Both the position numbers and the translations under genes were made by a program. From the NCBI GenBank assembly GCA_943329845.2, contig CALQFM020000006.1, positions 1 to 64,000 of the forward strand: a stretch of DNA of 64,000 nucleotides. Reading direction: 5' to 3'. Shown here one piece after another: positions 175 to 19,513 of the stretch (within the stretch, counting starts at the first letter, position 1; each line of letters begins with the position of its first letter). The notes below the pieces were generated by a model. The model had not been told where the DNA came from. It did no database searches and saw only the letters and a list, made by a program, of their open reading frames with translations. This DNA comes from Candidatus Kuenenia stuttgartensis. GTDB taxonomy: Bacteria > Pseudomonadota > Alphaproteobacteria > SMXS01.

Positions 175-567
175 ATGACTGACGGCGTATCCCTGGTCCT
201 GTGGACGCTCGCCGCGTTCCAGCTCAAGCACTTCCTCGGCGATTTCGTGCTGCAGACGAAGACTCAGGTCGTGAACAAGGGTTTCTACGGCCGGCGCGGC
301 GGCATCGCTCATGCCGCGACGCATGCGCTGCTGTCGGTTCCCGTTCTCGTCCTCCTGACGCGCGCACCGGTGCTGATCGCCGCGGCCGCCGCGGCGGAGT
401 TTCTGGTGCACTACCATATCGACTGGGCCAAGGCCCGTACCGACCGGGTGATGGGCTGGAGCGATCGGGACAGCATCTACTGGGCGGCGTTCGGCATCGA
501 CCAGCTGCTGCACCAGCTGACCTATCTCGCCATCGTCGCGGTCCTGTTGCCGCAGGCCGCCGGGTAA
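175..567 (+). CDS. DUF3307 family membrane protein
   Basis: This is a small integral membrane protein of about 130 residues with no known biochemical role. The frame stays open further upstream, but I start at the ATG at 175 because the preceding residues are polar, low-complexity and unlike the family. Near the N-terminus the order K-H-F-x-x-D-x-x-L-Q-T-K is visible, which I recognise from DUF3307 proteins. Later come hydrophobic stretches rich in Ala, Val and Leu and a conserved-looking H-Y-x-x-D-W-x-K segment. The gene converges on the channel gene that ends at 571, leaving only 3 bp between the two stops. The family call rests on motif recall. Confidence 0.72.
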   Translation: MTDGVSLVLWTLAAFQLKHFLGDFVLQTKTQVVNKGFYGRRGGIAHAATHALLSVPVLVLLTRAPVLIAAAAAAEFLVHYHIDWAKARTDRVMGWSDRDSIYWAAFGIDQLLHQLTYLAIVAVLLPQAAG

Positions 568-570
568 CGG

Positions 571-1995
571 CTACCCCAGGACCCGGCTGAAAAACGCCCT
601 CATGCGGGCGAGCAGGTCGACTTCGGCGGATTTGGGCACCGGCCGATTCGCCATCTCGGCCTGTTCCCGCTGGCGGCGCGCCAGCAGTTCGCCGAAGCGG
701 TTGAGCAACTCCGGCGACCGCTGCAGCAGTTCCTCGACCGATTCCTTGGTGATCTCGAGGGCGCGAATCCGCGTCATCGCCGTGACGCTCGCCGAGCGCG
801 GCGCGCCGGTCATCAGCGACATCTCGCCGACCACGTCGCCCGCGGCCAGCACCGCCAGTTCCTGCGGCACGCCCTGCGGCAGGGCGAGCGTGACGCGCGC
901 GGCGCCCTCGAGGATGATGAACATGGACGACGCCGAAGCGCCCTGTTCCATGATCACGGCGTCGCATGCGAACTCGGAGACGGCGCACCGGGTAGCCAGC
1001 AGCAGGATCTGCTCCTCGTTCAGGGTTTCCGCGAACAGGCTGGCATGGCGCAGCCCGTCGGGAATCGAGTCCGGTCCCAGGCCATAGCCGAGATCGGGCG
1101 GCTGGGCGATCTCGATCTGGGTGACCGGCAAGGGCATGCCGCTGTGCTGTAAAACCCGGAGCACGGCGCGGAAGACGGCCGACTTGGCGACGGTCGGCGT
1201 GACCTTGTCGGGATCGGCGTAGAAGCGCACCCGGTAATAGACGGCGTCGCCGTCGATCCGGTCGACGACGATGCTCGGCTCGGGGTTCGGCGACATGCCG
1301 GGGCCGGTGCGCACGGTCTTCATCACCTCGGCCAGCATCATGTCCACGGCGCGCTCGCAGGGCACGCGGACATCCACGCTGACCTCGATCTCGAACCGCT
1401 TCGCGTCGCCCGGGCGGCTGTGGTTCAGCACCGGATTGGCCGTGATGATGTGGTTGGGCACCATCAGCCGGCGGCCGTCCTCCAGCATCAGGAAGGTGGA
1501 GCGCCACGAAAGGTGGGTGACACAGCCATAGACCGGTTCCGGCAACTGGTCGGAGTACACGGTGAGCCAGTCGCCGAGGGCATAGGAGCCGTCCAGGTTG
1601 ATCGAAAGTCCGCTGAACAGATCCTGGATGACCGTCTGCAGCGCGATACCCAGGATCACCGCCGTCGCGCCCGACGCCGTGATCAGGCCGGTGAAGGACA
1701 TGCCTTCCTGCCACCAGAGGCCGATCGACAGGCCCAGCAGCAGCAGCGCGATGGTCAGGATGTCGCGAATCAGCGCCGGGGTTTCCCGGCCGCGGCGCCG
1801 CCGCCAGTAGCGGTGCCAGTAGAAGTACCGGATCAGGCCGTCGATGAAGAGCGTGACGGCCACGACCAGGACGACGGTCAATCCGCTGAGGATGTCGGCG
1901 GTCGCTTCCGGTGAGAAATACATCCCGATCGCTTCCCCGCCCCAGAGACGGGCGGCGAGCAGGACAGCGATCGCGAGAGCCGACCAGAAGATCAT
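571..1995 (-). CDS. MscS-family channel with C-terminal cyclic-nucleotide-binding domain
   Basis: A 474-residue inner-membrane channel. Hydrophobic helices lie at about residues 3-18, 35-56 and 77-97. The pore-lining MscS helix (about 102-130, rich in G and A) and the soluble beta domain (about 135-300) follow. Residues 325-445 form a cNMP-binding domain whose phosphate-binding cassette reads G-D-V-V-G-E-M-S-L with G-A-P-R-S after it (Glu391, Arg400, Ser401). Channels of this layout are known as bacterial cyclic-nucleotide-gated (bCNG) members of the MscS superfamily and open on ligand rather than tension. It is last in the operon, and its ATG overlaps the stop of the CHASE2 cyclase by 4 bp, which places a cAMP source directly upstream. 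That the cyclase gates this channel is inference. Confidence 0.9.
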   Translation of the reverse strand: MIFWSALAIAVLLAARLWGGEAIGMYFSPEATADILSGLTVVLVVAVTLFIDGLIRYFYWHRYWRRRRGRETPALIRDILTIALLLLGLSIGLWWQEGMSFTGLITASGATAVILGIALQTVIQDLFSGLSINLDGSYALGDWLTVYSDQLPEPVYGCVTHLSWRSTFLMLEDGRRLMVPNHIITANPVLNHSRPGDAKRFEIEVSVDVRVPCERAVDMMLAEVMKTVRTGPGMSPNPEPSIVVDRIDGDAVYYRVRFYADPDKVTPTVAKSAVFRAVLRVLQHSGMPLPVTQIEIAQPPDLGYGLGPDSIPDGLRHASLFAETLNEEQILLLATRCAVSEFACDAVIMEQGASASSMFIILEGAARVTLALPQGVPQELAVLAAGDVVGEMSLMTGAPRSASVTAMTRIRALEITKESVEELLQRSPELLNRFGELLARRQREQAEMANRPVPKSAEVDLLARMRAFFSRVLG

Positions 1996-3995
1996 TTTTC
2001 CGTCATCACCATTTCCACGCCGGTCTCACCCTCCGCCAGGCGCCTCATGTGCAGCGAAACGCATGGGTCGTCAGGCGCCTGGCCGTGCAGCGCCGCGAAC
2101 AGACCGGCCGCGTCGGGTTGCCGTTCCTTGAGCCGCTGATACGCCACGCCGTAGTCCCGGAGGAAGTCTGGCGAATAAGTATCGCCGTGCAAAGGCTCCC
2201 AAAGCTCCAGGGCTTCGGTTTTTCCCTTCAGCACCACTGAGGCCACCGGCCGGAACAGCACATCCGGGCACAGATCCCGCGTCGCGCCGCTGACGCACAG
2301 CCGCGTGCCAAGATATTTGTTGATGCCTTCCAGCCGCGCCGCCGTGTTCACCGCGTCGCCCTGCGCCGTGTAGGTGAAGCGCGCGCGGCTGCCGAAATTG
2401 CCGATCACCGACATGCCGGTATGCACGCCGATGCGGGTTACCCCGAGCGCGAAGCCGGCCTGGTTCTGCTCGACGCGGAAGCTTTCCGTGAAGCGGTCCA
2501 TCTCCAGCATGCACATCACCGCCTTCTGGGCATGATCGGGCAGGTCGACCGGCGCGTTGAAGATCGCGAACACCGCGTCGCCGATGAACTTGTCGACCAT
2601 GCCGTCATGTTTCAGGACGATGCTGGTCATGCCGTCGAGATAGGCGTTGACCAGCTGCGCCAGCGACTTTGAATCCATCCGCTCCGACATGGTGGTGAAG
2701 TTCTGGATGTCGGAGAACAGGTAGGTCATCTCGCGGCGCTCGCTCTCCAGCGACATGCGCGACGGGTCCTGCACCATCTGCTCGACCACCTTGGGCGAGA
2801 CATAGCGCGAAAACGCGCCCTGGATGAACTCGCGCTGGCGGCGGGCGTCCCGGCCGCCGAGGGAATCCAGCACGGTGAAGGCGCCGATGAACGACAGGGT
2901 AGGCGCGATCAGGCCGATCATCACGCCCTGGTAGTGGAACAGCGCGACGCCGCCCAGCCACAGCAGCACGATCACGCCGATACCGCCCAGGATGCGCGGC
3001 AGCAGCGCCGCGTTGGCCACGCCCAGCGCCGCGCCGGCCAGCGCGAGCAACAGGGCGATGGCGAAGTCTGTTCCCCAGCCCGCCACCGGAGACGGCTTCT
3101 GGTGCAGCAGCTGCGACAGGATATGCGCCTGGATCACCACGCCCGGCAACTGGCCTTCGTCGCCGGCCAGGGTGACCGAAAACGGCGTGCGGTGCCGGTC
3201 GACCAGGGTGACGTCGGAGCCGATCAGCACGATCTTGTCCTGGAACCACGCCGCCGGCATGAACCCGGCCACCGTGGCGGAAATCTGCCGGAACGGTTTG
3301 GGGTTGAGGTCGGTCGGCGTGGGCGGCGGGCGGCCGCGCCAGATGATCGGCACCTGGACGTCGGGCGTTTTCACGCTCGCGGCCTCGGCGAGGGCGCGCG
3401 CGAAGCCCATGACGTAGCGTCCGTCGTCCATGCGCCGGCCAGGGAATACACCGCGCGCGGTGTCGAACTGGTCGGTCGGCAAGTCCGCCATCCCGCGCTG
3501 GTGCGGCGCGATCATCGCGTCCTCGAACGCCTTCTGCTCGGGCGTCACGGTGGCGCCGGAGACGATGTAGCTGACGATCACCGGCAGCCTGATCGTCCGC
3601 AGCGTTTCCTTGAGCGCGGTGTCCTTGTCCGGTTCCGTCGGCTGGTCGAGCAGCAGATCGAGGCCGATCGCCTTGGGCTGGTGCGCGGCGAGGCGCTGGA
3701 GGAGGTCGCTGACGAACTTGCGGTCCACCGGCGAGCGGTAGGCGAAGCCGCGCAGCGTGTCCTCGTCGATGGCGACGATGATGATGTCCGGGTCCTGCTC
3801 CTCGCGCGGCGCGAACACCGAGGCGATCTGCCAGTCCTGGATGAACTGATTGATACGCGACATGAAGGACAGGTTGTTCGTCGCCAGGGTCGCCAGCACG
3901 GCGGTGAGCGCGGCGAGGCCGATGAACCGGGCGGCCGCCGCGATCCGCTTGCCGCGGCCTGGCGAGACCGCGCGGCTCGTGGCGGCGTCGCTCAT
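1992..3995 (-). CDS. CHASE2-domain class III adenylate cyclase
   Basis: A 667-residue membrane cyclase. A first membrane helix lies at about residues 23-40, and an extracytoplasmic CHASE2 sensor at about 45-320, where I-G-L-D-L-L-L-D is typical. Three clustered helices occupy about 330-400. The cytoplasmic class III cyclase domain starts with F-S-D-I-Q-N-F-T. The two metal-binding aspartates are Asp429 and Asp473, and the Lys before I-G-D favours ATP over GTP. The transition-state motif V-N-T-A-A-R-L-E is intact, so the enzyme should be active. Its ATG overlaps the previous stop and its own stop overlaps the start of the cNMP-gated channel. CHASE2 ligands are unknown, but the domain should sense something in the periplasm. 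Confidence 0.93.
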   Translation of the reverse strand: MSDAATSRAVSPGRGKRIAAAARFIGLAALTAVLATLATNNLSFMSRINQFIQDWQIASVFAPREEQDPDIIIVAIDEDTLRGFAYRSPVDRKFVSDLLQRLAAHQPKAIGLDLLLDQPTEPDKDTALKETLRTIRLPVIVSYIVSGATVTPEQKAFEDAMIAPHQRGMADLPTDQFDTARGVFPGRRMDDGRYVMGFARALAEAASVKTPDVQVPIIWRGRPPPTPTDLNPKPFRQISATVAGFMPAAWFQDKIVLIGSDVTLVDRHRTPFSVTLAGDEGQLPGVVIQAHILSQLLHQKPSPVAGWGTDFAIALLLALAGAALGVANAALLPRILGGIGVIVLLWLGGVALFHYQGVMIGLIAPTLSFIGAFTVLDSLGGRDARRQREFIQGAFSRYVSPKVVEQMVQDPSRMSLESERREMTYLFSDIQNFTTMSERMDSKSLAQLVNAYLDGMTSIVLKHDGMVDKFIGDAVFAIFNAPVDLPDHAQKAVMCMLEMDRFTESFRVEQNQAGFALGVTRIGVHTGMSVIGNFGSRARFTYTAQGDAVNTAARLEGINKYLGTRLCVSGATRDLCPDVLFRPVASVVLKGKTEALELWEPLHGDTYSPDFLRDYGVAYQRLKERQPDAAGLFAALHGQAPDDPCVSLHMRRLAEGETGVEMVMTEK

Positions 3996-4687
3996 TTTTG
4001 CCGGTTCAGCAGCGCCACGGCCTGTGCTTCGCAGCCCTTCTCGGCCATCCAGGCCGTGCGCATCGCGTCATTGGCCAGCGCGGCCGGCACCGACACCAGG
4101 GTGATGGCGGATTCCACGCCCGCCACGCTCACCACATAGGTTTCGCCGCCGCGCATCGGCACATCCGTGGTGATCGACAGGCGGTCCTGCCCGGCGGGCC
4201 ATTGCGCCTGCGCCTTCCAGCTGCGATCGGTCGGCGCCACGGTCAACGCGGACGCGCTGGCCGCGGCGGGACGCCAGAAGACGGGCTGGCGATTTTCCAG
4301 CATGCAGCCATTGCCGCCATGGGTCGCGTCCACCAGCCACGGATCCGGCAGCTTGGCCAGCACCGCGGCGCGGGTGGTGCCGAACTCGCCGCTGCGGGCC
4401 TCGCGTTGCGTCACCAGCGCCTTCAGCGTGGTCGAGAGATTGACGCCGCCGCCCTGCACGGCGACCGGCGGCTTGTCGTAGGGACCGTCGAGCTTCAGCG
4501 TCGATCCGGTCTCGGAGATCAGCGTCAGGTGCTGGCCCTGCTTCAGGTGCAGCACCGCGTCGGACTGCAGGAGGGTGCCCGGCTTGAGGCCGATGCCGCG
4601 CGCCTCGACCACCACCAGGGTCGCGGCGCCGGCTTCGCCGGTCACGAGCGCGGCTGCGAGCAGCGCAATAATGAACCGCCATGTCAT
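3992..4687 (-). CDS. secreted protein of the CHAT/CHASE2 operon, possibly FecR-like
   Basis: A 231-residue protein with a clean signal peptide (hydrophobic core about residues 4-16, likely cleavage after G-A-A near 22), so it should be periplasmic or exported. I use the ATG at 4687. It overlaps the CHAT gene stop as ATGA, whereas the longer frame upstream has no hydrophobic leader. The segment L-K-Q-G-Q-H-L-T-L followed by G-S-T-L-K-L-D-G resembles the beta-strand pattern of FecR-type domains, but the match is weak. Two cysteines (in N-G-C-M and K-G-C-E) could form a disulfide. Its stop overlaps the CHASE2 cyclase start. A plausible job is to pass a periplasmic signal to the CHASE2 domain, but this is inference from position only. 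Confidence 0.68.
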   Translation of the reverse strand: MTWRFIIALLAAALVTGEAGAATLVVVEARGIGLKPGTLLQSDAVLHLKQGQHLTLISETGSTLKLDGPYDKPPVAVQGGGVNLSTTLKALVTQREARSGEFGTTRAAVLAKLPDPWLVDATHGGNGCMLENRQPVFWRPAAASASALTVAPTDRSWKAQAQWPAGQDRLSITTDVPMRGGETYVVSVAGVESAITLVSVPAALANDAMRTAWMAEKGCEAQAVALLNRQK

Positions 4688-7662
4688 GATGCACCCCCGC
4701 CACGCTTCGCGCCGTCGCCGATCAGCGTGAACGCCGCCCAGTAGAATGGATGGGACGACGCGGGCTGGGCGAGCAGCGCCAGTTGCGATTGCCGCAAGGC
4801 CTCGGCCACGTCGCCGGTCGGATCGCGCGCCAGGCCAGCAAAAACCGCCGTCATCAGGCGCGTTGTCTCCGTCGACGGTACTTCCCAATGGCTGGCCAGA
4901 ACCTCGTGCGCGCCGGCGTTGAAGAAGGCGTCGGCAAGGCCGTGAAGGGCGCCGCCGCCAAAATGCGCGCCGCCAGCCGCCGCCGTGTTGCAGGCGGACA
5001 GCACGACCAGATCGGCGTTGAGCTTGAATCCGGCGATTTCGCTGGCGGTCAGCAGCCCGTCGCCGCTCGCCGAACTGGCGATGCTCGCCGGCGGCGACAG
5101 CACCAGGGCAGGCTCGGATTCGCAGTGCAGCTCGCCCGGCAGCAGGCCATGGGTAGCGAAATAGATCACGCCGTAGCTGTCGAGCGGCCGGGCGCGCAGC
5201 GCGGCCTCCGTTGCCTGGACGCCGAGCAGCACGTCCTCGGGGGCGGCGCGCAGGCTCTGTGCCACGGCGCGCACCTCGCCTTCCGTATCCGGCAGCAGCG
5301 GCAGCCCGCGCAGCAGCGCCGGATCGATGGGGCCGCCCCGCTGGCAGACCTGGGCGAGATTGCTCAAGGCCTTGCCGGAGGCGGCGCCGCCGCCGGCGAA
5401 GGACGGATCGCCGATGCCCAGAAAGGGCCGCGGCGCGGCGGCGCGATTTGCCGTGCGCAGCGCCACGAAGGCGCGGGGTGACGGAATCTGGCTGATCGCT
5501 GCGCGGCGGATCAGCCAGGCGGCGGCGCCGTAATTATCGCCGTCGCCGGGATCGGTCGTGACCAGCAGCGACAGGGGCAGGCTTGCCAGGTCGCCGGCGG
5601 ACGCGACGACCAGATGATCCGCGCCGGCGAGTTCGGTCTCGATGGGGCCGAGCAACTGTCTGTAGAGGGCGAAGGACGATTTCAGGCTGAACGCCGGCGG
5701 TTTGCCCAGACGCAGCGTGAAGGCGGTGCGAAGGTCGCCGATGTCCGCCGCCAGGCTGGTCGCGGTCGCCTGGACGGGACGCACGGTCAGGCCGTCCCGC
5801 GTGACCAGCAGGACGTAGCTGCGGTGCACCCCGATGACGAAACTGACGAAGGCCTCGCGCGGCCGCAGCCGCCCTTGAACGTCGCTCAGCGCGACGGTGT
5901 TGGGTTCGGCCAGCCTGGTATATTCGGGGAACTTTTCGCGCACGGTCGCGAGCAGGGCTTCGGCCTCTCTGGCGGATGTCTCCAGCTCGGCCGCCAGAAT
6001 CTTTTCGTGCGCCGCGTCACGGTCGCTGTCGGGCTTGGCATGCTCCGTGGCCAGCCCGATTCGCAGGCTGTCCACCTTGCGCTGCGCATCCTGGGCCTGG
6101 CGGATCTGGTCGGCGAGGGCGGGATCGGCGGCGGCCTCGCGCGCCGCCACATGGGCGATCGTCTGGTCAGCCACGCCCGCGCTAACCAGCTGGCTGGCGG
6201 TGAACATCTCGGCGTCGAGCTGCTGCCGCTCGCCCGTGGTGTCGCCCAACGCCGAGGCGGCGGCGAGGAACGGCGTGATCTGATCGGCGACGATCTGCGA
6301 GCGCGCGACCGGGTCGCCGGCCAGGATCTTGAATGCATCGCGGTAGGCCGCGACGGATGCGGTATAGAGCTGCTGGTCGGCGTAGAACTGTCCCAGCCGC
6401 AGTTCAGCCATGGCAGTCGGTGCGCGGTCGCCGAACAGCTTCAGGTTCATCGCCACCGAGTCGGTGAAATTCTGCTCGGCCGCCACGACTCGGCCCTGGC
6501 GGACGTTGATCTCGCCCATCAGCGCCACGATGTCGGGCCGCCACCACAGCGGCAGGGCCGGCTGCTGGCTGATGATGTACAGCGCCTCTTCCGCCGCGGC
6601 CTGCGCCGCCGGGATGTCGTCCAGCCGGACCGCCATCTCCGCCTCGATCCGCAGGCCGTGGGCCAGCTCGCCCTGCAGCGCGGCGGGGATCGGCGGCGGG
6701 GCGCTGCCGTTCATGTCCATGGCGGTGGCCTTGACCGCGTCGACCTCGGTCCGGCGCGCGGCGGTGGCGGCGCGGGCATATTTGAGGGCGTCGACATAAT
6801 TGCGCTGATTGGCGGCATTCAGCGCCCGATAGGCATTGAAACGGGCCCTGCCGGCCTCGCTCGAGGCGCTTTCGATGATCGGCGTGGCGCGCTGGAACAG
6901 CGCCGCCGCTTCGTCGAAACGGCCCTGGTTGCTGACCTGCAGCGCGAGTTCGATCAAGGCCTGGCCCACGGCGGCCGAATTCGGCCCGAACACTTTCGTC
7001 TGCACATCCAGCGCCGTGCGGTACGCCCCTTCCGACGCCACGAAGTTGCCGCCGCTGCTGTACAGCCGTCCCAGCTCGGTGGATTGCTGGTAAAGCGCCA
7101 GGTCGGCCGCGCGCAGTTCCAGCACGCTGGCCGGGTATTTGGCGCGCAGGATGGCGAGCGCCGCCGCCGTCTGGTCGGCGCCGCCGGATTGCGCGCGGAT
7201 CGCGGCGCTCATGACCGGCAGCATGCCGGGCAGGCCCTCGGCTTCGAAAACGCCGGTTTTGGCCGCCGAGAGCAGTACGATGCGCGGCCAGCTGTTGCTG
7301 CGCGTCTCGCATGTCAGCAGGACGTCGTCGGCGCCCAGTGGCTGACCGGCGTCGCAGCGGAGGCGGTCGATGGCGTTGAGCGCGCTTTCGGGGTTCGTCC
7401 GCGCCGCCCTGATGATCGCGGTCCGGCGCGCGGCGGCATCCTCGGGCAGTGCCGCCTTCAGGGTGGTGACGTGCAGGGCGCCCGCGGGCGACTGGCCTGC
7501 GCCGCACAGGATGGCCTTGCTCAGCGCCGGCGTGGCGACGCCCTCGGCCTGGCAGGCTTCGCCGCCGAGATTGTTGACGGGAGCGCTCGCCGCCCAGGCG
7601 GGGTTGCCGGCGGCGATGAGCAGGACCGCCAGGATGAAAGCGTGGGGTTTCTTGTGTCGCAT
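4684..7662 (-). CDS. secreted TPR-CHAT putative protease
   Basis: A 992-residue exported protein. The signal peptide is at residues 1-24 (ends A-W-A-A). A helical region with TPR-like repeats covers about 150-480 and is followed by coiled-coil-like sequence to about 570. The C-terminal CHAT domain covers about 680-985. The caspase-type His-Cys dyad is visible: His838 in F-A-T-H-G and Cys891 in L-S-A-C-N-T. CHAT domains are clan CD peptidase relatives. The start is the ATG at 7662, because the 215 residues upstream are an Arg-rich shadow of the transporter gene. It lies 14 bp after the TpsB stop and overlaps the next gene by ATGA. With a TpsA partner in the same operon, processing of the exoprotein or of a surface ligand is a reasonable guess, but the substrate is unknown. 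Confidence 0.9.
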   Translation of the reverse strand: MRHKKPHAFILAVLLIAAGNPAWAASAPVNNLGGEACQAEGVATPALSKAILCGAGQSPAGALHVTTLKAALPEDAAARRTAIIRAARTNPESALNAIDRLRCDAGQPLGADDVLLTCETRSNSWPRIVLLSAAKTGVFEAEGLPGMLPVMSAAIRAQSGGADQTAAALAILRAKYPASVLELRAADLALYQQSTELGRLYSSGGNFVASEGAYRTALDVQTKVFGPNSAAVGQALIELALQVSNQGRFDEAAALFQRATPIIESASSEAGRARFNAYRALNAANQRNYVDALKYARAATAARRTEVDAVKATAMDMNGSAPPPIPAALQGELAHGLRIEAEMAVRLDDIPAAQAAAEEALYIISQQPALPLWWRPDIVALMGEINVRQGRVVAAEQNFTDSVAMNLKLFGDRAPTAMAELRLGQFYADQQLYTASVAAYRDAFKILAGDPVARSQIVADQITPFLAAASALGDTTGERQQLDAEMFTASQLVSAGVADQTIAHVAAREAAADPALADQIRQAQDAQRKVDSLRIGLATEHAKPDSDRDAAHEKILAAELETSAREAEALLATVREKFPEYTRLAEPNTVALSDVQGRLRPREAFVSFVIGVHRSYVLLVTRDGLTVRPVQATATSLAADIGDLRTAFTLRLGKPPAFSLKSSFALYRQLLGPIETELAGADHLVVASAGDLASLPLSLLVTTDPGDGDNYGAAAWLIRRAAISQIPSPRAFVALRTANRAAAPRPFLGIGDPSFAGGGAASGKALSNLAQVCQRGGPIDPALLRGLPLLPDTEGEVRAVAQSLRAAPEDVLLGVQATEAALRARPLDSYGVIYFATHGLLPGELHCESEPALVLSPPASIASSASGDGLLTASEIAGFKLNADLVVLSACNTAAAGGAHFGGGALHGLADAFFNAGAHEVLASHWEVPSTETTRLMTAVFAGLARDPTGDVAEALRQSQLALLAQPASSHPFYWAAFTLIGDGAKRGGGAS

Positions 7663-7676
7663 CGCGCCGCCGCCCC

Positions 7677-9437: not shown

Positions 9438-12400
9438 CCGGGAATGCTGCCGTAACTCAGCGGCCCGCCTTGCGTGCCGCCGTTCGACGACGAGTGCAGA
9501 AGGTTCGGGATAATGGCGTTGGGATCGCCGCTTCCCGAGTTCGGTGGCGGGCCATTGTCGAAGGTCTCGACGAGATAGGCGATCGCTGAATCCGATACCG
9601 TGGGCGGATCGCCCTTGTTCTGTCCGCCTGGGCCCGACGCCACCAAGCCCGCGAGCGGGTTGACCGTGTTGTTGGGTGGGGGAGGCGGATTATTGGGCGG
9701 CCCGCCGGCACCCTGACCGGGAGGTTCATTGCCCGCCGCCTGGTTCAGGGCGTCGATGATGGTGCCGGGGTGCGGATCGAACAGCTGGGTCGTCGTCACC
9801 GTCACGCCGGTCAGCACCGGTCCCAGGCCGCCGGTGTCCGGCTGATCGGGGGTGATGACGCCGACCGGCCCACTGGCTTCGCTCGCGATGACGTAATTGC
9901 CGGCCTTGGCACCCGTCAGCGTCAGGCCCGCAACGGTGACCAGCTTGTCCGTGCCGACGTCCGGCGTGTCGTAGAAGCCGGTTGTCGGCAGGCCGACCAG
10001 CGAGACGTCGTCGCCAAAGAGGATGCCGTCCAGCGACGAATAGTTGCCCGCATCCAGGGTCGCCGTCGTTGTGCCGTCGAAGACCTTCTGGACGGTGCCG
10101 ATCAGCGTGATCGTCAGGGTCGCCGGGCTGATGGTAAAGGCCGTGGCGTTCGCGCCGGCCTGGACGAACACGTAGTTCTGGGCCGCGAGCCCGGAACCGT
10201 TGATGGCATAGGTGCCGACATTGCTCGTGCTCGTGGCAAGCGACGCGAACACGAGCGTCCCGGTGGTGGCCGAACCCTGCGTATCGCCGTTGACGAAGCC
10301 TGTCACGGTGCCGCCGAAGGACGGGTTGGCCGAGCCGTAAACCCGGCTCGCCGCGTTGGCGGCATAGGTCAGCGTCGCCGGATCGATCGTCAGCGCCGTT
10401 CCGTTGCCCGCCGCCTGCACGAACACGTAGTTCTGGGCCGCCAGGCCCGAGCCGTTGATCGCATAGCTGCCCACGCTGCTGGACGACGTGGCGAGCGACG
10501 TGAACGCCAGCGTCCCCGTGGTCGCCGAACCCTGCGTGTCGCCGTTGACGAAGCCGGTGACGGTGCCGCCGAACGCCGGGTTGGCCGCGCCGTAGATGCG
10601 GCTTGCCGCATTGGCCAGGTAGGTCAGGGTCGCCGGGTCGACGGTCAGCGCGCTGCTGTTGGCCTCGGCCTGGACGAACACATAGTCCTGCGCCGACAGG
10701 CCCGACCCGTCGATGGCGTAACTGCCCACGCTGCTACCCGCCGTGGCGGGCGAGGTAAAGACCAGCGTGCCGGTCGTTGCCGAGCCCTGCGTGTCGCCGT
10801 TGACGAAGCCGGTCACGGTGCCGGTGAACGCCGGGTTTTCCGCGCCATAGATGCGGCTTGCCGCGTCGGCCAGATAGGTCAGCGTTGCCGGGTCGACGGT
10901 CAGCGCGCTGCTGTTGGCCTCGGCCTGGACGAAAACGTAATCTTGTGCCGACAGGCCCGACCCGTCGATGGCGTAACTGCCCACATGGCTCGCCGCCGTG
11001 GCGGGCGAGGTGAAGACCAACGTTCCCGTGGTGGCGGACCCCTGCGTGTCGCCGTTGACGAAGCCGGTGACGATGCCGGTGAAGGCCGTGTTATCCTCGC
11101 CATAGAGGCGGCTCGCCGCGTCGGCCAGATAGGTCAGCGTTGCCGGGTCGACGGTCAGCGCCGAGGTATTGCCCCCGGCCTGGACGAAGTCGTAGTTGTC
11201 TGCGCTCAGGCCTGAGCCGTCGATGGCGTACTTGCCTACGCCGCTGGACTTGGTGGCTTCGGACGTAAAGGCCAGCGTCCCCTTGGTTACCGTTGCATTC
11301 TCGCCATTGACGAAGCCGGTCACGGTGCCCGTGAAGGCCGGGTTGGCGTCGCCGTAGGTCCGGCTGACCGCGTCGGCGATATAGGTCAGCGTCGCCTTGG
11401 TGACGGTCAGCGCCGAGGCGTTGTTCTCCGCCTGGACGAAGTCGTAGTTGTCGGCCGCCAGGCCGGAGCCATCAATGGCGTAGTGGCCCACGCCGCTGGA
11501 CTTGGTGGCGCCGGACGTAAAGGCCAGCGTCCCCTTGGTTACCGAGGCATTCTCGCCGTTGACGAAGCCGGTCACCGTGCCGGTGAAGGCCGGGTTCGCA
11601 TCGCCGTAGGTGCGGCTGACCGCGTCGGCGATATAGGTCAGCGTCGCCTTGTTGACGGTCAGCGCCGAGGCGTTGTTCTCCGCCTGGACGAAGTCATAGT
11701 TCTGTGCCGACAGGCCCGAGCCGTCGATGGCATAGCTGCCGACCGAACTCGTCTTCGTCGCGGTCGAGGTGAAGGCGAGCGTGCCCTTGGTGTCGAGCTT
11801 CAGCGTGTCGTCGTTGACGAAGCCGGTCACGGTGCCGGTGAACGCCGGGTTGGCGTCGCCATAGAGGCGTTCGGCCTTGTCGGCCACATAGGTCAGCGTC
11901 GCCTTGGTGACGGTCAGCGCCGAGGCGTTGCCCTTGTCCTGGACGAAGACGTAGTTCTTCGCCGACAGGCCCGACCCGTCGATGGCGTAGCTGCCCACGT
12001 CGCTCGCCGCGGTGGCCTTCGAGGTGAAGACGAGCGTTCCGCTGGTATCCGATACCAGCGTGTCTTTATTGACGAACCCGGTCACGGTCCCGTCGAAGGC
12101 CGGGTTGCCCTGGCCATAGGTACGGCTCGCGGTGTTGGCGATGTAGGTCAGCGTCGCCGGATCGATGGTCAGGGCGTTGGCGTTGCCCTTGGCCTGGACG
12201 AACACGTAGTTGTCGGCGCTCAGGCCAGAGCCATCGATGGCGTACTTGCCCACGTCGTCCGCCGAGGTGGCCGCCGACGTGAAACTCAGCGTTCCCTTGG
12301 TCGCCGATATGTTCTCGCCGTTGACGAAGCCGGTGACCGTGCCGGTAAGAGCCGGGTTGTCCTGGCCGTAGGTGCGGTTCTTGGCATCGGCAACGTAGGT

Positions 12401-15400
12401 CAGCGTCGCGGGATCGATGGTCAGGGCGGAGGCATTGCTCTTGTCCTGGACAAACACGTAGTTGTTGGCCGTCAGGCCCGAGCCGTCGATGGCGTATTTG
12501 CCGACACTGTCGGACTTGGTGGCTGTGGTGGAGAAGGTCAGCGTCCCTGTGGTCGCCGACATGTTCTCGCCATTGACGAAACCAGTGACGGTGCCGGTGA
12601 GGGACGGGTTGGCGGCGCCATAGGTACGGTTCTTGGCATCCGCGGTATAGGTCAGTGTCGCCGGGTCGACGGTCAGCGCGGTGGCGTTGCCCGGATCCTG
12701 CGCGAACGCGTAGTTCTGCGAACTCAGGCCCGATCCGACGATGGCATATTGGCCGACCGAGCTTGTCTTGGTTGCGTCCGACATGAAGATCATCGTGCCG
12801 GTGGTCGAGGATTCCTGCGTGTCGTCGCCCAGGAAGCCGTAGATCGTGCCGGTGAAGGTCGGATTGTCCTGGCCGTACAGGCGGGTCGCCGGATCCGCCA
12901 GATAGTACAGCGTCGCGGCCGGATCGACGGTAAGCAGGCCGGTGCTCACCAGGCTGACCCCGTAGCCGCTGCCGATCACCAGGAAGCTGCCCGTCTTCAC
13001 ATCGATGGAATAGGGGCTGCCCTCCACGTTCGCGTCGGACTTCGAACCTTCGGAGGTCACCGTCGGCGTGCCGCTATAGACGCTTTCCACCGTGTCGCCG
13101 AGGAACGCGTTCGCCACGCCCTCTTGCACACCGGTGACGGTATAGGCGGCGGCGACCTCGGCGGTCACATCCTTGCCGAATGTCTTCTCCACGTCGGTCG
13201 AGGTGACGGTGATCACCGGCTGGTAGGCGAACACGTAGCGGTTGCCGGCTTCGCCGATGGTGTTCTCGCCGTTGTAGACGGTGTTCCAGACAGCGGTGTT
13301 CCCGCTGTCCAGGTCGCCGTAGGTGTTGTCGGCGGGATTGTTCGAGTAGACCAGCCAGCGGGAGCCATCCACCACCTTGATCGCATCGCTGCCGGCGTTG
13401 TTGTGGAAGTTCCCCTTCGCGGACAAAAGGACCGAAGTCCCATCTTCGCCACCCGAGCCGCCGGTGATCGCCGCGTCCGCATCAATATCGAGGTCGCCGT
13501 CCGAGATGATGGTGAACCACAGGCCGGATTGCGATGTGCCCACGGTCGTATCGACCGAGTTCCGGATGAACACCTCGCCGGTGGCATCCGCCCGGATCGT
13601 CCCGGTGATGGCGTTGTTGCCCGGCAGGGAGATGCTGTAGAGGAAACCCTCGTCAAACGTGTCGCGGGTGCTGACGGTCAGGTCGTTGGCGAAGATCGCC
13701 CCGTTCTGGTACACGTCGGAATCGTTGATGCTCAGCACGACGTTGCCGGCGCCAGCGTCGATCCCGTTGATCCCAAGATAGCTCGATGGCGAATACGCCG
13801 TGATCCTGACGTCCTTGTCTTCCGTCGTCGCGGTCAGCGCGTAGAAGCCGTTGTCGGGATTCTGCAGCCAGATCTCGTCGAAGGCGGAGGTAACGGTCAA
13901 TGTGTCGGCCACCACATGGCCGGCGTCCGCCCAGCTGTCGCCGTTGTCAGGGTCGTAGCCGTCGCTGACGATGCCGCCAGCGAGCAGGACCACCGCGCCT
14001 GTGGCGTCGATGCTCGAGTTGACCTTGTTGTCACCTTCGTCGACGAACGAGGTGTTGCCGAGCGTCAGCCAAGGGTTGGTGTTGCCTGTGGGATCGGCGA
14101 CGAGAATGGTGACGTCGCCCGCATACTCGATATAGGTGCCGAACTTCTCGCCGCCGTTGGCACGGACGAGGGTCGTGTTCACCGAATTGGCGAAAGTGAT
14201 GTCGCTGTAGATCGGGTCTTCGATATCGTAGGTTGGCCCGGCCGTCAGGTCGACCTCGCCCTCCACGGCATTGACCGGATTGGCGAGCGAGATATCGCCC
14301 GCGCCAGCGATTACCGTCAGGCTGCCGCTGGCGCTGACATGGCCAGCGGATGCGGCACTGCCGATGTTGTTGGCGTCGTAGCCATCGCTGATGCCGCCAT
14401 CGGCCTGCAGCACCACGTCACCATAGGAGTCGATGCTGGAGTAGACCGTGGCGTCGTTTTTGTCCGTGTATTCACGGTTGCCGATCTTCAGTGATGGCGT
14501 GGTTTCGCCGCTTGGATCGCGCACCGTGATGGTGACGTTGCCGGCGCGCAGCGACGTGCCATTCAGATCCACGTCCGACCCGCTGGCTCTGGTAATGGTG
14601 GTGTCGACCGAATTGTGGAACGAGATGTCGCTGGCGACATTCTCCTGCATTTCACTGTCGTAATGATCGGCAACGTAGAAATCCGCGCTGCCCGACACGG
14701 CGTTGTAGTCATTGTCCAGCGTGACGTTATTCCTGGAGTGGACATCCAGGTTCGTGGTGGTAATGACGCCGGTAACGTCGGCGCTCTGGGTCACGACGCC
14801 ATTGCCGAAGATCAGCACGTAATTGCTGTCAACGCCGCCTGTCAGGCCGTCGACGCCGATATTCAGGTCTCCCGGATTGATGATGATGGAGCCGTTCTTG
14901 GCCTGGGCGTGAAGGTTCAATGTCCCGTTTTCGGCGCCCAGTCCAAAAGTCCAGCTGGTGCCGTCATTGCCGCCGACGCTGCCAAAGTCGCTGATCAGGC
15001 TCAGATCGTTATGCTCACCATCGCCGGTGCCGACGATGATCGTGCCGGCGCCATTGTTATTGGCGATGTCGCCGGACGCCTGCAGCGCCGAATAGCCGCC
15101 CTGGCTGTTCTCGGCGTGAATACGGCCGGCGATGACCAGTACCGGATTGTTCTCGGGCGCTGCAAAGTCGGCGACCCGCACCTTCAGGTTGCCGCCGATA
15201 TAGGAATGCGGCGATTCATATTTGTCCGGCGGCGCCATCGGCGTCCCGGCGAAATCATACAGCGGCGTTACCGGTTCGCCGGTCTCGGGATCGATGGGAT
15301 AGTAGGCGTGCCCGCCCATGATGGTGTTGACGGTATTGCTGAAGTATGCGTCGCCGGCGGCGTTCAGGATGACGTAGCCGTTGATGTCGCCGCCCACCTT

Positions 15401-18178
15401 GTTGCCCAGGTCGGTGTCGCCGTTGCCGAGGTCGTCGAGATAGAGCGAGCCGTTGTCGCTGGTGGCGATCAATCCGATACCCTGCAGATGAGCGTCGCCG
15501 TTCGAGCTGTACATCTGCCGGATGTCGCCCGACGCGTGCAGAGTGATGAAGTCATCCGCGACGACCGGATTGAAGATGCGGATCTGGTTCTCGACGGTCT
15601 GCGGCTGGTCGAATTGGTCGTTGACGACGTAGTTGCCGAAAGCCGCTATCGAGATCGAGCCGCCGCTGAATGCGGCATAGACATCCACGGGCGTGATGAA
15701 ATTGAATGTCGCATCGCCCCCGCTCACGAAGGCAAGCTGGCCGGGGTTGAGTGTCTCCCCCGGTCCGTCGCAGCCGCTGACGGTGCAGACGATGGCCGGC
15801 ACCAGGGCGTTGGCATTCGGCAGCGAGATGATGCCGCCGCTGTTGAGCGCAAGGCTTCCACCGTAGAAGCCGTCGCCGGGACCGTGGGCTATTACAAGTC
15901 CGTTGGCGAGTTCGACTATGTCGGTTTCGGCGTTCAACGTTATCCCGCCGCCTTCGATCGTGCCGGCGATCGTTACTCCGCCCTTGAGGGCGGTGATCTG
16001 GATAGCGCCGTAGTCGCCGTAGTCGCCCTCGCCGAATGGGTCGGCGAACACGGTGATGTCACCGAGGGTGATCGCCTGTGAATTCGTGATCTCGATCTGG
16101 TTGTCGCCGCCGAAGGCGCCGCCGACGGATGTAGCCGTCACCTTGCCCGAGATCGCGTTATCCTTGTTCGTAAGGCTGATTGGATTGGCGCTGTTGACGT
16201 CGCCGACGAGGCCGATGGTGAGGTCGTTGACAGCGATCGCTCCGGTTTGCGTCAGCCCCGTCACTGTCAGGGTGAGGTTGCCCCCATTCAGGTCCACGGC
16301 TTGCGTATGGCCGGAATTGCCGAGCTGCACGTCGAAGCCGTCTATGAACGCGTCATAGCCCGCCGTTTCGACATAGAGCTTGCCGTCCACCGTCACCGTT
16401 TTGTCGATGGCGCCGATGCCGCCGCCGTCATCGTGCTTGCCAACGATCAGGTCGATCTCGTCGGCGTGGATGGAGTTGGATCCTTCCATCGCGATGACGC
16501 CTGCGCCGGTGCCGCGCTTGGATGCGTTGGCGTTCGGATCGTTGGCGGACAGGACGATCCTGCTGCCGGTGCCGATGTTGCTGAGTGAGACATTCTTGTC
16601 GAAGGTGATCGAGCGTCCTGCGTCCAGCTCTAGCGTGTTGGCGGTCTCCACGTTGACCGAGCCCTGGACCTTGATGTCGTTGTTGGCCTGCAGGGTGACA
16701 TTGCCGCTGAGCAGCGCACCCTCGATGGTATCGGTCAGGATGATCGAGCCGCCGTCGCCGAACGCCAGGACCCCGCCGCTCAGCGTGGTGTCTTCCGAGC
16801 CGGTATCGACGATGGAAAGATCGTCCGGATCCAGCAACCAGTTGCCTGCCTCACCCGCAGGCGCACTGGTGACGACCGTGGCGCCCGCATCTATGCCCAG
16901 CGTGGCGCCCGACGTTTCCACCCGTCCGCCATCCCCGGAAAGGGCGCCGCCCCTGGCGCTGATCGTGCCGGCGAACCGGGTCAGGCCGTCCGACCAGACC
17001 ACGACGTCGCCGCCATCGCCCCTGGTGATTGCATCGGCGGTGATCGTGGCCTTGCCGACCGTCGTGGTCTGGGCGTTGGCCTGCAGGCCGGCACCGTGGA
17101 AATTGCCGCCGATCAGCGCCCTGCCGCCGCCCGCGTCGCCGGAGACATCGATGCGCGCGCCATCGGCGACATCGACCGTCTTGCCCAGGACTTTCACCGA
17201 GCCGCCGGTTTCGCCCGGCGCCTTGCCGGACGCGTCGAGGATGCCGCTTGTACGGGCGGTGCCGTTACCGGCATCGAGAATGATCCGGCCATCCACCTCG
17301 CGGGCGCTGACCGCCTCGATAATGCCGGTATTGTTGATGACGCCACCGGCGACGCTGGCCGCAGCGCGAGCGGTCAGCAGGACCTTTCCGCCGGCCGAGG
17401 CGATCTTCCCCGAATTGGAAACCTCGGGGCCCGCCCCGCCCGTGGAGGGATCGGAAGGCATGACCGCGTAACGCAACAGGTTGTCGCCGGTGAAATCGAG
17501 CGTAAAGGCGGTGGCGCCCCCGAGCACGACGGATCCGGCGTCGGCCTGGATGAGGCCGGCATTCGAGACTCGTGATCCCGAGAGCACGACGGAGCCGCCA
17601 TTGGCGGCGCGGATGGTGCCGCGGTTGGTGATGGCCGCGTCGGTCCCGTCGGCGAAGACATAGCCGCCCGCCACGAAAGCGTCGTCCGTGATGTCGGCGG
17701 TGGTGGCGAGCAGCCCGCCGACATTCACCTGGGAGCCCTGGCCGAACAGCACGCCGTTCGGATTGAGGATCCAGACCTGTCCATTCGCGCTCAGTGTTCC
17801 GTCAATGACCGACGCGCCGCTGCCGATCACGCGGTTGAGGGCGATCGACTGTTTGTCGGGCTGCGCGAACTGAACGGTGCCGCCAGCGGCGACCGAGAAG
17901 TCCTGCCAGTTGATGACCGCTTTTGGGGTCGACTGGGTGATGACGGTTGTATTGCCGCTGGTGGTGATCCCGGCCTGGCCGGAAACAACAGCGCCTCCGG
18001 CGGGCTGCGCGGAGGCGGAAGAAAGCGCCCCACTCATCAGGGCAAAAACGCAGGTGCAGCCAAACAGATATGTATATCTGTGGCTTGCGACCACATCGCG
18101 GCACGCACGCCGCAGTTCTATTGCGTCCAATGCCTTGCCCCTCAAATGCCGACGTTCGGAGGCGCCCAATCCCCTCAT
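9410..18178 (-). CDS. TpsA exoprotein (filamentous haemagglutinin family) with tandem MBG repeats
   Basis: A 2922-residue secreted surface protein and first gene of the operon. An extended signal peptide has its hydrophobic part at about residues 38-58, ending A-S-A-Q. The TPS secretion domain (about 60-330) carries the hallmark N-P-N-G-V after G-Q-V-W-I-L and repeated short beta-helix strands. A long irregular beta-helix follows to about 1720. Eleven MBG-type repeats cover about 1755-2686. Next is a YDG-like module (K-V-F-D-G-T-T-T-A) and a Pro/Asn-rich tail with no obvious toxin domain or cysteine release module. TpsA proteins act in adhesion, aggregation or biofilm. The partner TpsB is directly downstream. 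The promoter must lie in the short region shared with the LuxR-type gene. Confidence 0.95.
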   Translation of the reverse strand: MRGLGASERRHLRGKALDAIELRRACRDVVASHRYTYLFGCTCVFALMSGALSSASAQPAGGAVVSGQAGITTSGNTTVITQSTPKAVINWQDFSVAAGGTVQFAQPDKQSIALNRVIGSGASVIDGTLSANGQVWILNPNGVLFGQGSQVNVGGLLATTADITDDAFVAGGYVFADGTDAAITNRGTIRAANGGSVVLSGSRVSNAGLIQADAGSVVLGGATAFTLDFTGDNLLRYAVMPSDPSTGGAGPEVSNSGKIASAGGKVLLTARAAASVAGGVINNTGIIEAVSAREVDGRIILDAGNGTARTSGILDASGKAPGETGGSVKVLGKTVDVADGARIDVSGDAGGGRALIGGNFHGAGLQANAQTTTVGKATITADAITRGDGGDVVVWSDGLTRFAGTISARGGALSGDGGRVETSGATLGIDAGATVVTSAPAGEAGNWLLDPDDLSIVDTGSEDTTLSGGVLAFGDGGSIILTDTIEGALLSGNVTLQANNDIKVQGSVNVETANTLELDAGRSITFDKNVSLSNIGTGSRIVLSANDPNANASKRGTGAGVIAMEGSNSIHADEIDLIVGKHDDGGGIGAIDKTVTVDGKLYVETAGYDAFIDGFDVQLGNSGHTQAVDLNGGNLTLTVTGLTQTGAIAVNDLTIGLVGDVNSANPISLTNKDNAISGKVTATSVGGAFGGDNQIEITNSQAITLGDITVFADPFGEGDYGDYGAIQITALKGGVTIAGTIEGGGITLNAETDIVELANGLVIAHGPGDGFYGGSLALNSGGIISLPNANALVPAIVCTVSGCDGPGETLNPGQLAFVSGGDATFNFITPVDVYAAFSGGSISIAAFGNYVVNDQFDQPQTVENQIRIFNPVVADDFITLHASGDIRQMYSSNGDAHLQGIGLIATSDNGSLYLDDLGNGDTDLGNKVGGDINGYVILNAAGDAYFSNTVNTIMGGHAYYPIDPETGEPVTPLYDFAGTPMAPPDKYESPHSYIGGNLKVRVADFAAPENNPVLVIAGRIHAENSQGGYSALQASGDIANNNGAGTIIVGTGDGEHNDLSLISDFGSVGGNDGTSWTFGLGAENGTLNLHAQAKNGSIIINPGDLNIGVDGLTGGVDSNYVLIFGNGVVTQSADVTGVITTTNLDVHSRNNVTLDNDYNAVSGSADFYVADHYDSEMQENVASDISFHNSVDTTITRASGSDVDLNGTSLRAGNVTITVRDPSGETTPSLKIGNREYTDKNDATVYSSIDSYGDVVLQADGGISDGYDANNIGSAASAGHVSASGSLTVIAGAGDISLANPVNAVEGEVDLTAGPTYDIEDPIYSDITFANSVNTTLVRANGGEKFGTYIEYAGDVTILVADPTGNTNPWLTLGNTSFVDEGDNKVNSSIDATGAVVLLAGGIVSDGYDPDNGDSWADAGHVVADTLTVTSAFDEIWLQNPDNGFYALTATTEDKDVRITAYSPSSYLGINGIDAGAGNVVLSINDSDVYQNGAIFANDLTVSTRDTFDEGFLYSISLPGNNAITGTIRADATGEVFIRNSVDTTVGTSQSGLWFTIISDGDLDIDADAAITGGSGGEDGTSVLLSAKGNFHNNAGSDAIKVVDGSRWLVYSNNPADNTYGDLDSGNTAVWNTVYNGENTIGEAGNRYVFAYQPVITVTSTDVEKTFGKDVTAEVAAAYTVTGVQEGVANAFLGDTVESVYSGTPTVTSEGSKSDANVEGSPYSIDVKTGSFLVIGSGYGVSLVSTGLLTVDPAATLYYLADPATRLYGQDNPTFTGTIYGFLGDDTQESSTTGTMIFMSDATKTSSVGQYAIVGSGLSSQNYAFAQDPGNATALTVDPATLTYTADAKNRTYGAANPSLTGTVTGFVNGENMSATTGTLTFSTTATKSDSVGKYAIDGSGLTANNYVFVQDKSNASALTIDPATLTYVADAKNRTYGQDNPALTGTVTGFVNGENISATKGTLSFTSAATSADDVGKYAIDGSGLSADNYVFVQAKGNANALTIDPATLTYIANTASRTYGQGNPAFDGTVTGFVNKDTLVSDTSGTLVFTSKATAASDVGSYAIDGSGLSAKNYVFVQDKGNASALTVTKATLTYVADKAERLYGDANPAFTGTVTGFVNDDTLKLDTKGTLAFTSTATKTSSVGSYAIDGSGLSAQNYDFVQAENNASALTVNKATLTYIADAVSRTYGDANPAFTGTVTGFVNGENASVTKGTLAFTSGATKSSGVGHYAIDGSGLAADNYDFVQAENNASALTVTKATLTYIADAVSRTYGDANPAFTGTVTGFVNGENATVTKGTLAFTSEATKSSGVGKYAIDGSGLSADNYDFVQAGGNTSALTVDPATLTYLADAASRLYGEDNTAFTGIVTGFVNGDTQGSATTGTLVFTSPATAASHVGSYAIDGSGLSAQDYVFVQAEANSSALTVDPATLTYLADAASRIYGAENPAFTGTVTGFVNGDTQGSATTGTLVFTSPATAGSSVGSYAIDGSGLSAQDYVFVQAEANSSALTVDPATLTYLANAASRIYGAANPAFGGTVTGFVNGDTQGSATTGTLAFTSLATSSSSVGSYAINGSGLAAQNYVFVQAAGNGTALTIDPATLTYAANAASRVYGSANPSFGGTVTGFVNGDTQGSATTGTLVFASLATSTSNVGTYAINGSGLAAQNYVFVQAGANATAFTISPATLTITLIGTVQKVFDGTTTATLDAGNYSSLDGILFGDDVSLVGLPTTGFYDTPDVGTDKLVTVAGLTLTGAKAGNYVIASEASGPVGVITPDQPDTGGLGPVLTGVTVTTTQLFDPHPGTIIDALNQAAGNEPPGQGAGGPPNNPPPPPNNTVNPLAGLVASGPGGQNKGDPPTVSDSAIAYLVETFDNGPPPNSGSGDPNAIIPNLLHSSSNGGTQGGPLSYGSIPGWGNTALWQ
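10120..12915 (-). repeat. eleven tandem 252/255-bp repeats (MBG, YGX type) inside tpsA
   Basis: Reading the minus strand, a unit of 84 or 85 codons is repeated eleven times. Each unit has T-L-T-Y, a Y-G-x-x-N-P step, G-T-V-T-G-F-V-N, a S-Y-A-I-x-G-S-G-L step and N-Y-x-F-V-Q. On the plus strand the anchor tgacgaagcc recurs at 10291, 10546, 10801, 11056, 11308, 11560, 11815, 12070, 12322 and 12574, which gives spacings of 255 or 252. The first N-terminal unit is the most diverged. Units around 10641-11150 are close to identical at the DNA level, which points to recent duplication or gene conversion. The repeats are in frame and coding, and match the MBG_2 domain type found in long adhesins. Confidence 0.93.
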
Positions 18179-18328
18179 TGGCCGCCTTACCGACTCCGTG
18201 TAAGTTATCTAGCAGCATTTTGTGGCACAATCGCGCCCTTTGCAGAGGGGCATTGCGTGATCCGATGAGGCCACACGCGCCGCCCGCCGGCCTGGCCGCC
18301 GTTCTCCCCGCGGGAATTCCTCTCCGGC
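18179..18328. promoter_or_regulatory. divergent promoter region between tpsA operon and luxR-like gene
   Basis: The 150 bp between the two divergent starts must hold the promoters of the six-gene TPS operon and of the LuxR-type gene. The left half is relatively AT-rich and includes a perfect 11-bp palindrome, TTGTGGCACAA, at 18220-18230, which could be an operator. I found no convincing lux box (20-bp dyad of the ACCTGT type) and no clear -35/-10 pair. Confidence 0.35.
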
Positions 18329-19009: not shown

Positions 19010-19020
19010 TCCGTCCTGCC

Positions 19021-19488: not shown

Positions 19489-19513
19489 CTGGTCTCTCCC
19501 GTTGTTTCCCCAA

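Follow-up and report, generated by a model that had tools for sequence, protein, structure and literature searches.

Recurrent association of a two-partner-secretion exoprotein, an exported TPR-CHAT protein, a CHASE2 cyclase and cyclic-nucleotide-binding proteins in an alphaproteobacterial operon and its relatives

The first 64 kb of the 89-kb contig CALQFM020000006.1 (GenBank assembly GCA_943329845.2, deposited as Candidatus Kuenenia stuttgartensis and placed by GTDB in the Alphaproteobacteria, SMXS01) were analyzed here; "the window" is this 64,000-nt stretch, whose position 1 is the start of the contig (C6). It carries a six-gene operon for a two-partner-secretion (TPS) exoprotein (TpsA), its outer-membrane transporter (TpsB), a TPR-CHAT caspase-like protein, a small exported protein (here called SMALL), a CHASE2 adenylate cyclase, and an MscS-type channel with a cyclic-nucleotide-binding domain (CNBD). 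The same parts stay together through rearrangement at other loci, and this is good evidence for a joint function of the gene set. The original prediction supposed that the state of the exoprotein is sensed in the periplasm; a specific candidate for this is now a C-terminal tail, consensus GNExLW, found on many CHAT-linked exoproteins whose bodies differ. Known families account for five of the six parts, but the whole, which would be a messenger-coupled periplasmic proteolysis of a TPS adhesin, seems undescribed. No publication that brings together any two of CHAT domain, CHASE2 and two-partner secretion, that pairs the CHAT domain with hemagglutinin, or that combines bacterial cyclic-nucleotide-gated (bCNG) channels with adenylate cyclase and operon, was found in literature searches whose scope left out most subscription journals, and the main text of a TPS review (PMC5422565) does not mention CHAT.

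Recurrence of the gene set

Single parts served as queries against a sample of 289 genomes of the class, and CHAT was found in 58, CHASE2 in 137, POTRA_2 in 85, and SMALL in 30. The SMALL search gave 36 rows, from which four weak or fragmentary ones were dropped and 32 read with their surroundings. Of these 32 genes, 24 have a CHASE2 cyclase within about 10 kb (chance expectation 0.8% per place) and 12 have a CHAT gene nearby (chance expectation 0.3% per place), on the assumption of independent places and 2.5-Mb genomes, which is conservative. All 12 of the CHAT-linked places also have the cyclase, in one case (L148) as two open reading frames (ORFs). The CHAT search gave 104 rows, seven of which were not taken separately because they were weak or inside stretches already included; the other 97, with one genus-mate, make 98 CHAT neighborhoods (window not counted), and our own models found TpsB in 20 of them and a CHASE2 protein in 22.

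A search of named genomes with SMALL as the only query found 21 loci. Our own profile models recognized a CHASE2 cyclase in all of these and CHAT in 20, although the CHAT match of L182 is weak and lies on the opposite strand; the exception, L180, begins inside SMALL at a contig end. TPS genes are present in 16 of the 21, 13 by profile and three more (L165, L167, L170) with TpsA directly upstream, outside the stretch first read, and in L173-L178 TpsB is on the opposite strand. All six genes occur together in the window, L071/L164 and L166, and five were seen in L163, L165 and L167, where the sixth would lie beyond the contig or the stretch read.

The order of the genes varies. In the window it is TpsA-TpsB-CHAT-SMALL-cyclase-channel, in L071/L164 and L166 TpsB-TpsA-CHAT-SMALL-cyclase-channel, and in the sphingomonads L179, L181 and L214 CHAT-SMALL-cyclase-TpsB-TpsA. 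The Sphingobium herbicidovorans plasmid pMSHV and four other Sphingobium plasmids have CHAT-cyclase-SMALL-TpsB followed by a large protein, and models recognize the first four genes on each of the five plasmids. We assign the large protein to TpsA on its place and size; a weak TPS match was seen in S. herbicidovorans only (E 2e-9), and none at default settings. The original prediction had proposed a search of other genomes for the gene set, and in the SMALL-only search it recurs, in different orders and in other families, so the idea of a one-off peculiar to this genome was dropped. Within its own genus the operon is patchy, present in two of seven genomes, although two of the seven are less than 90% complete.

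The exoprotein tail

The first two genes fit two-partner (type Vb) secretion, with a TPS domain in TpsA (PF05860, 127.7 bits) and PF08479 and PF03865 in TpsB, both above cut-off. The pattern G[NK][EDT]x[LF][WFI] is found within the last 100 residues of 13 of 18 CHAT-linked TpsA proteins (two pairs of which, L141/L142 and L105/L183, are near-copies) and in just one of 430 other 100-residue windows of the same 18. These counts exclude the fragments L151, L246, L255 and the N-terminal part of L144, as well as L179, L181 and L214, which are cut by an edge. The window protein ends in PGWGNTALWQ, those of L164 and L165 in SSWGNEALWQ, and that of L166 in SSWGNEALWRW; tail cores elsewhere are SGNEGLW (L141/L142), SGNEALW (L147), NTGKDxLW (L089/L100/L120) and NQGNEDLF (L092). 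L253, read after the 18 had been fixed, ends in GNDSGW, without a strict match.

The L167 genome allows an internal comparison. It has a single CHAT gene, and the TPS protein beside it carries the tail, while none of eight further TPS proteins with complete ends, all on contigs other than that of CHAT, does so; one more TPS protein of this genome outside the eight (L248) also lacks it. These eight are the clean controls, L251 and L252 having been left out because they stand 6-10 kb from another CHAT gene. A stricter C-terminal form of the motif matched 15 of 21,811 ORFs from the fetched loci, mostly CHAT or SMALL neighborhoods, and all 15 are exoprotein ORFs in CHAT loci, representing 12 distinct genes; one (L072) has no N-terminus on its contig and another (L144) is the latter half of a gene that is split in two. 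In the five Sphingobium exoproteins, from plasmid records that were not part of the motif definition, GNEDLW stands 15-18 residues before the end, in one case as read from the second of two annotated ORFs. The tail is missing in two filamentous-hemagglutinin-type exoproteins from Azospirillum argentinense and Thalassospira marina, where the stretches read hold no CHAT.

The TpsA C-termini also differ in a cysteine pair, C-x4-8-C within the last 160 residues, which is absent in the five TpsA of the window clade and present in eight of nine CHAT-TPS loci without cyclase as well as in L098. In Azospirillum and Thalassospira (L268, L269) the gene immediately after the TPS exoprotein gene is of the SapC family; another SapC-family gene follows the CHASE2 cyclase in L171, and one lies about 0.9 kb from it in L175.

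TPR-CHAT, SMALL, cyclase and channel

Pfam finds TPR repeats and a CHAT domain (PF12770, 197.5 bits) in the third ORF. The catalytic pair named in the original prediction, His838/Cys891, is correct, and the dyad is kept in all 30 aligned loci, window included. Under a lenient rule 28 of 29 CHAT proteins have signal-peptide-like starts; the sole miss is the window protein, whose start falls outside the range searched by the rule, but by eye its N-terminus is a plain Sec signal peptide (MRHKKPHAFILAVLLIAAGNPAWA). The protein had been described as secreted, and because it has a Sec signal peptide it does appear to be exported, but probably to the periplasm rather than released. Other CHAT genes have protease neighbors: those in L257 (a Pseudosulfitobacter plasmid) and L261 (a Tolypothrix plasmid) are within a few kb of caspase-family protease genes, in L257 also near trypsin-like ones, and a CHAT match is present in 46 Pseudosulfitobacter plasmid records.

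SMALL belongs to an unnamed exported family, most often found beside CHASE2 cyclases. Searches for relatives gave a best E of 0.004 in Pfam, below cut-off, nothing in NCBIfam, and a best E of 0.02 among Protein Data Bank (PDB) sequences; Foldseek gave partial matches of the Ig/FN3 kind. No convincing known family or solved homolog came from these four sources, and a FecR-like identity was discarded for want of a Pfam FecR match. The predicted structure (mean pLDDT, the per-residue confidence score, 81) is mostly beta with one middle helix and two C-terminal helices. Cys128 and Cys219, along with other residues, are invariant among 21 sequences. Besides its CHASE2 neighbors SMALL adjoins histidine kinases in two loci, and elsewhere has no evident partner, which would suit a periplasmic partner of membrane receptors, chiefly CHASE2 ones.

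A second family of exported proteins, 212-230 residues long with two conserved Cys and no Pfam family, takes the place of SMALL beside CHAT and a CHASE2 cyclase at L103, L108, L115, L126, L127, L101, L134 and L093. Seven of the eight, aligned as A3, matched SMALL over just 55 columns, signal peptide included, with 81% probability. At L274, on a plasmid of Azospirillum sp. B510 (15112-19701), a small hypothetical protein not recognized as SMALL, a CHASE2 cyclase and TpsB stand in a row, with CHAT annotated nowhere nearby.

The cyclase ORF has CHASE2 (PF05226) and Guanylate_cyc (PF00211) domains. In class III cyclases an Asp pair binds metal and a Lys/Thr pair selects adenine. The window protein has both, in the stretches FSDI, KFIGD and YTAQGD; the metal Asp residues had been predicted to be intact, and they are so in 30 of 30 aligned cyclases. 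The adenine-type Lys is kept in 22 of the 30; in six related loci Gln takes its place, with Lys at the other position. L099/L173 and L174-L178 read QFTGD / YKALGD, with Gln for the adenine-type Lys and Lys for Thr, and also carry a CNBD-only protein with a C-terminal extension; the product specificity of these cyclases may differ.

The last ORF combines an MscS beta domain and a CNBD in one chain (Pfam MS_channel_2nd and cNMP_binding). Its phosphate-binding cassette is intact, as had been claimed, with Glu and Arg kept in all 19 rows, of which two are doubtful members. Channels of bCNG type reportedly belong to the MscS superfamily and carry a CNBD, in work attributed to Caldwell in 2010 and Malcolm in 2012. 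The operon channel resembles them in its MscS core and C-terminal CNBD, and gating by cyclic nucleotides is predicted for it, but it belongs to a separate subfamily: among the 289 genomes only the window and G013 carry it (837 and 898 bits; next 233). The channel is beside a CHASE2 cyclase in all seven loci where it was seen, and follows the cyclase in six of the 21 loci of the SMALL search (L163-L168). In another six (L173-L178) a CNBD-only protein of about 120-170 residues, with no DNA-binding domain by eye, is ahead of CHAT, and L066, L105, L112 and the Niveispirillum plasmid record L183 have one downstream of the cyclase; a CNBD match of 53 bits in L182 was not counted. A Crp/Fnr gene beside the S. 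herbicidovorans cluster was considered as a third type of effector but not counted (CNBD match E 0.14).

A possible outside-in pathway

The arrangement could be explained by signaling of adhesin state, a reading to which we give nearly, but not quite, even chances. TpsB would export TpsA, leaving the last residues with their GNExLW-type tail in the periplasm. TPR repeats are suited to C-terminal peptides, and the periplasmic TPR-CHAT protein would recognize this one, its processing depending on whether TpsA is fully exported, bound or pulled. SMALL, as a periplasmic partner of CHASE2 receptors, would relay this event to the inner-membrane cyclase through its CHASE2 domain. Cyclic AMP (cAMP), the presumed product, would then rise near the membrane and open the dedicated MscS-CNBD channel or, in sister loci, act on the free CNBD protein. 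The co-occurrence of tail and CHAT points to the first of these links, the neighborhood of SMALL and CHASE2 genes suggests the middle one, and the recurrent CNBD partners are consistent with the last. An inward direction for the signal is likely because the cyclase carries a receptor domain of the extracytoplasmic type.

The closest known parallel is in Pseudomonas aeruginosa, where LapG, in the periplasm, cleaves the TPS adhesin CdrA at its C-terminal tail (PMC5422565, PMC4694147). Both systems would have a TPS adhesin, a cysteine protease that meets the C-terminal tail of the adhesin in the periplasm and acts on it there, and an inner-membrane protein tied to a cyclic-nucleotide messenger. 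The likeness would be one of working principle only. Where the other system has the transglutaminase-like LapG and the degenerate GGDEF-EAL protein LapD, a cyclic di-GMP receptor, Pfam here gives CHAT, a caspase-like domain accompanied by TPR, and a CHASE2 class III cyclase, and the operon adds SMALL and a channel and would likely signal from outside in. For the inner part of the route there is a precedent in Sinorhizobium meliloti, where the outer-membrane barrel NsrA acts upstream of the CHASE2 cyclases CyaD1/CyaD2/CyaK and of Clr (PMC13001267), so that a signal passing from the outer membrane to CHASE2 is not new. Like the operon, that pathway ends in a cyclic-nucleotide-binding effector, but a transcription regulator, and in the available portions of the source neither a TPS exoprotein nor a CHAT protease is named for NsrA.

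Two other systems with related parts were compared. The TPR-CHAT protease of Craspase (Csx29, type III-E CRISPR) reportedly has the same architecture and is triggered by a partner, but the operon protein is exported, has other neighbors and would have the TPS exoprotein as its likely substrate; the six operon genes, to which this comparison was limited, are all accounted for by families other than gRAMP/Cas7-11. A plasmid cluster of Tolypothrix PCC 7601 has a CHASE2 protein, a 222-residue protein and TPR/CHAT proteins side by side. In this case, however, the CHASE2 protein gives no match to a cyclase, the 222-residue protein is not SMALL (E 0.32), and a TPS pair is not in the stretch shown.

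Several observations weigh against such a pathway. The tail motif was defined on the same 18 TpsA in which it was counted, and the five Sphingobium proteins are close relatives. The strict motif is missing in five of the 18 (L105/L183, L098, L171, L067), although three of these end in Trp or Phe. In the L173 and L175 genomes the sole TPS protein found is on another contig than the SMALL cluster, has no tail, and stands 6-10 kb from a second, different CHAT gene, and no TPS domain was found in the L169, L172 and L178 genomes, three of 12 searched, all three drafts. The tail is also found in CHAT-TPS loci without any cyclase, and thus speaks for contact between CHAT and TpsA, not for cAMP. On the side of SMALL, 12 of the 32 class-sample places have a CHASE2 cyclase but no CHAT, and ten of these 12 also lack TPS genes (the other two have TpsB near); outside the class a CHASE2 cyclase is beside SMALL at nine of 18 places, with CHAT or TPS seen at none. 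The signal relayed by SMALL therefore need not come from an adhesin, and at eight of the 32 places no CHASE2 is near SMALL at all. Finally, the coupling of cyclase to channel that had been proposed is supported in part. Cyclic-nucleotide-binding proteins recur in the cluster, as the MscS-CNBD channel in one clade and as CNBD-only proteins at different positions in others, but 14 of 31 loci with CHAT and SMALL show no CNBD protein (some being truncated at a contig end), and the five Sphingobium stretches gave no CNBD match. The channel itself was probably acquired just once, because in a tree of 69 SMALL sequences the seven channel-bearing loci form one fully supported clade, together with an eighth that is cut by a contig end.

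The next most probable explanation, under which many of the same points would be expected, is that two modules merely share a promoter, with CHAT as a maturation or release protease that reads the GNExLW tail of TpsA, much as LapG does for CdrA, and the SMALL-CHASE2 cyclase-channel part sensing some other envelope cue such as stress or a small ligand. Tail-bearing CHAT-TPS pairs with no cyclase found nearby (L089, L092, L100, L104, L120, L141, L142, L147) and SMALL-CHASE2 pairs without CHAT or TPS both fit this explanation. Against it, at least four gene orders, spread over several families, bring the two parts together, and CHAT, SMALL and cyclase overlap by 4 bp in the window; a link by co-expression alone would seem less likely to outlast such reshuffling. 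A ligand sensor of the NsrA kind, in which the TpsB barrel or TpsA binds a ligand, the CHASE2 cyclase answers and CHAT only turns over the exoprotein, is improbable. It could draw on the precedent of a barrel upstream of CHASE2 cyclases, but NsrA is described as a beta-barrel without a TPS partner being named in the available portions of PMC13001267, and CHAT, present in 20 of the 21 SMALL-search loci where TPS genes are in 16, does not look optional.

The contact or conflict response suggested in the original prediction fared worst, with nothing in particular to support it beyond matches at the domain level. Pycsar systems pair a pyrimidine-specific cyclase that answers phage infection with a CNBD effector of TIR or transmembrane type, and a comparable self-sacrifice set off by contact, in which the activated cyclase opens the channel, killing or stalling the cell, is the least probable of the explanations considered, to be regarded as very doubtful. 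In PADLOC the cyclase domain scored 90.5 bits with a Pycsar cyclase model and the CNBD 58.5 bits with a PycTIR effector model, and the patchy presence in the genus described above would also be in keeping with it. Compared with Pycsar itself, the operon has adenylate-type cyclase residues and an MscS-CNBD protein as effector. Both matches, however, are to widespread cyclase and CNBD domains, no phage or pyrimidine-nucleotide link is shown, and at other loci the cluster has CNBD-only proteins without a membrane or toxic domain.

Signaling of adhesin state is thus the preferred reading among these. A broader form of it, a widespread and previously undescribed outside-in system in which TPR-CHAT reads the GNExLW tag of its own exoprotein and a new family of periplasmic adaptors with a CHASE2 cyclase produces cAMP to gate a dedicated channel, is somewhat more doubtful. 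If it held, bacteria would have a caspase-like checkpoint that reports whether the long adhesin on the cell surface is anchored, engaged or has been lost, and to which the cell responds, within the membrane, through cAMP and a flow of ions. Exported CHAT proteins would then have a physiological role in common with CHASE2 receptors and MscS-type cyclic-nucleotide channels, and a named short peptide and a cultured Sphingobium strain would make the system testable.

Operon layout and flanking sequences

Coordinates are given in Table 1. All six ORFs are open on the minus strand, and the ORFs and Pfam results agree with the operon and the six parts originally proposed, SMALL alone having no Pfam family. 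The five junctions had been described as overlapping or within 15 bp. This is so for four of them: CHAT/SMALL, SMALL/cyclase and cyclase/channel are 4-bp ATGA overlaps, and 14 bp separate the TpsB stop from the CHAT ATG. For TpsA/TpsB it holds only with the non-ATG start of TpsB (14 bp with TTG at 9395; 65 bp with ATG at 9344).

Table 1. Positions of the operon, its genes and associated features in the window.
Feature	Position	Strand	Basis
Six-gene operon, transcribed in the order TpsA, TpsB, TPR-CHAT, SMALL, CHASE2 cyclase, MscS-CNBD channel	571-18178	minus	
TpsA exoprotein, 2922 aa; TPS domain aa 57-308, 11 MBG_2 stretches, YDG domain	9410..18178	minus	ORF and Pfam
Codons of the TpsA C-terminal tail, GNTALW, then Q and stop	9416..9433	minus	Counted from stop codon
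TpsB outer-membrane transporter, POTRA_2 and ShlB barrel; start TTG 9395 or ATG 9344	7677..9395	minus	ORF and Pfam
TPR-CHAT caspase-like protein, 992 aa, signal peptide; His838 at 5149-5151, Cys891 at 4990-4992	4684..7662	minus	ORF and Pfam
SMALL, exported protein of 231 aa without Pfam family; predicted mostly beta, C-terminal part Ig/FN3-like	3992..4687	minus	ORF and structure prediction
CHASE2 adenylate cyclase, 667 aa; class III cyclase domain aa 421-593	1992..3995	minus	ORF and Pfam
MscS-type channel with C-terminal cyclic-nucleotide-binding domain, 474 aa	571..1995	minus	ORF and Pfam
Gap of 150 bp between operon and divergent LuxR-like ORF; presumed promoter region	18179..18328	minus	Position

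Downstream, a convergent ORF lies 4 bp from the end of the operon, and the flank appears to be an assembly break at a repeat. The contig end (window 1-160), which we take to be part of an IS3-type transposase end from the motif HSALGYKPP, recurs at five other places in the genome, two of them at contig starts and three within about 15 bases of contig ends, as placed by locus lengths.

Upstream, a scan of positions 1-19000 for sigma70-like promoters gave no sites where 2.0 were expected by chance, which is uninformative either way. The divergent ORF (18329-19009, plus strand) has an autoinducer-binding domain (PF03472, 76.8 bits) and no relatives by phmmer in the other CHAT and SMALL loci scanned. 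It stops about where the DNA-binding helix-turn-helix would start, with no continuation seen by eye in the other frames, and may be a truncated LuxR solo, or one lacking the helix-turn-helix, beside the presumed operon promoter.

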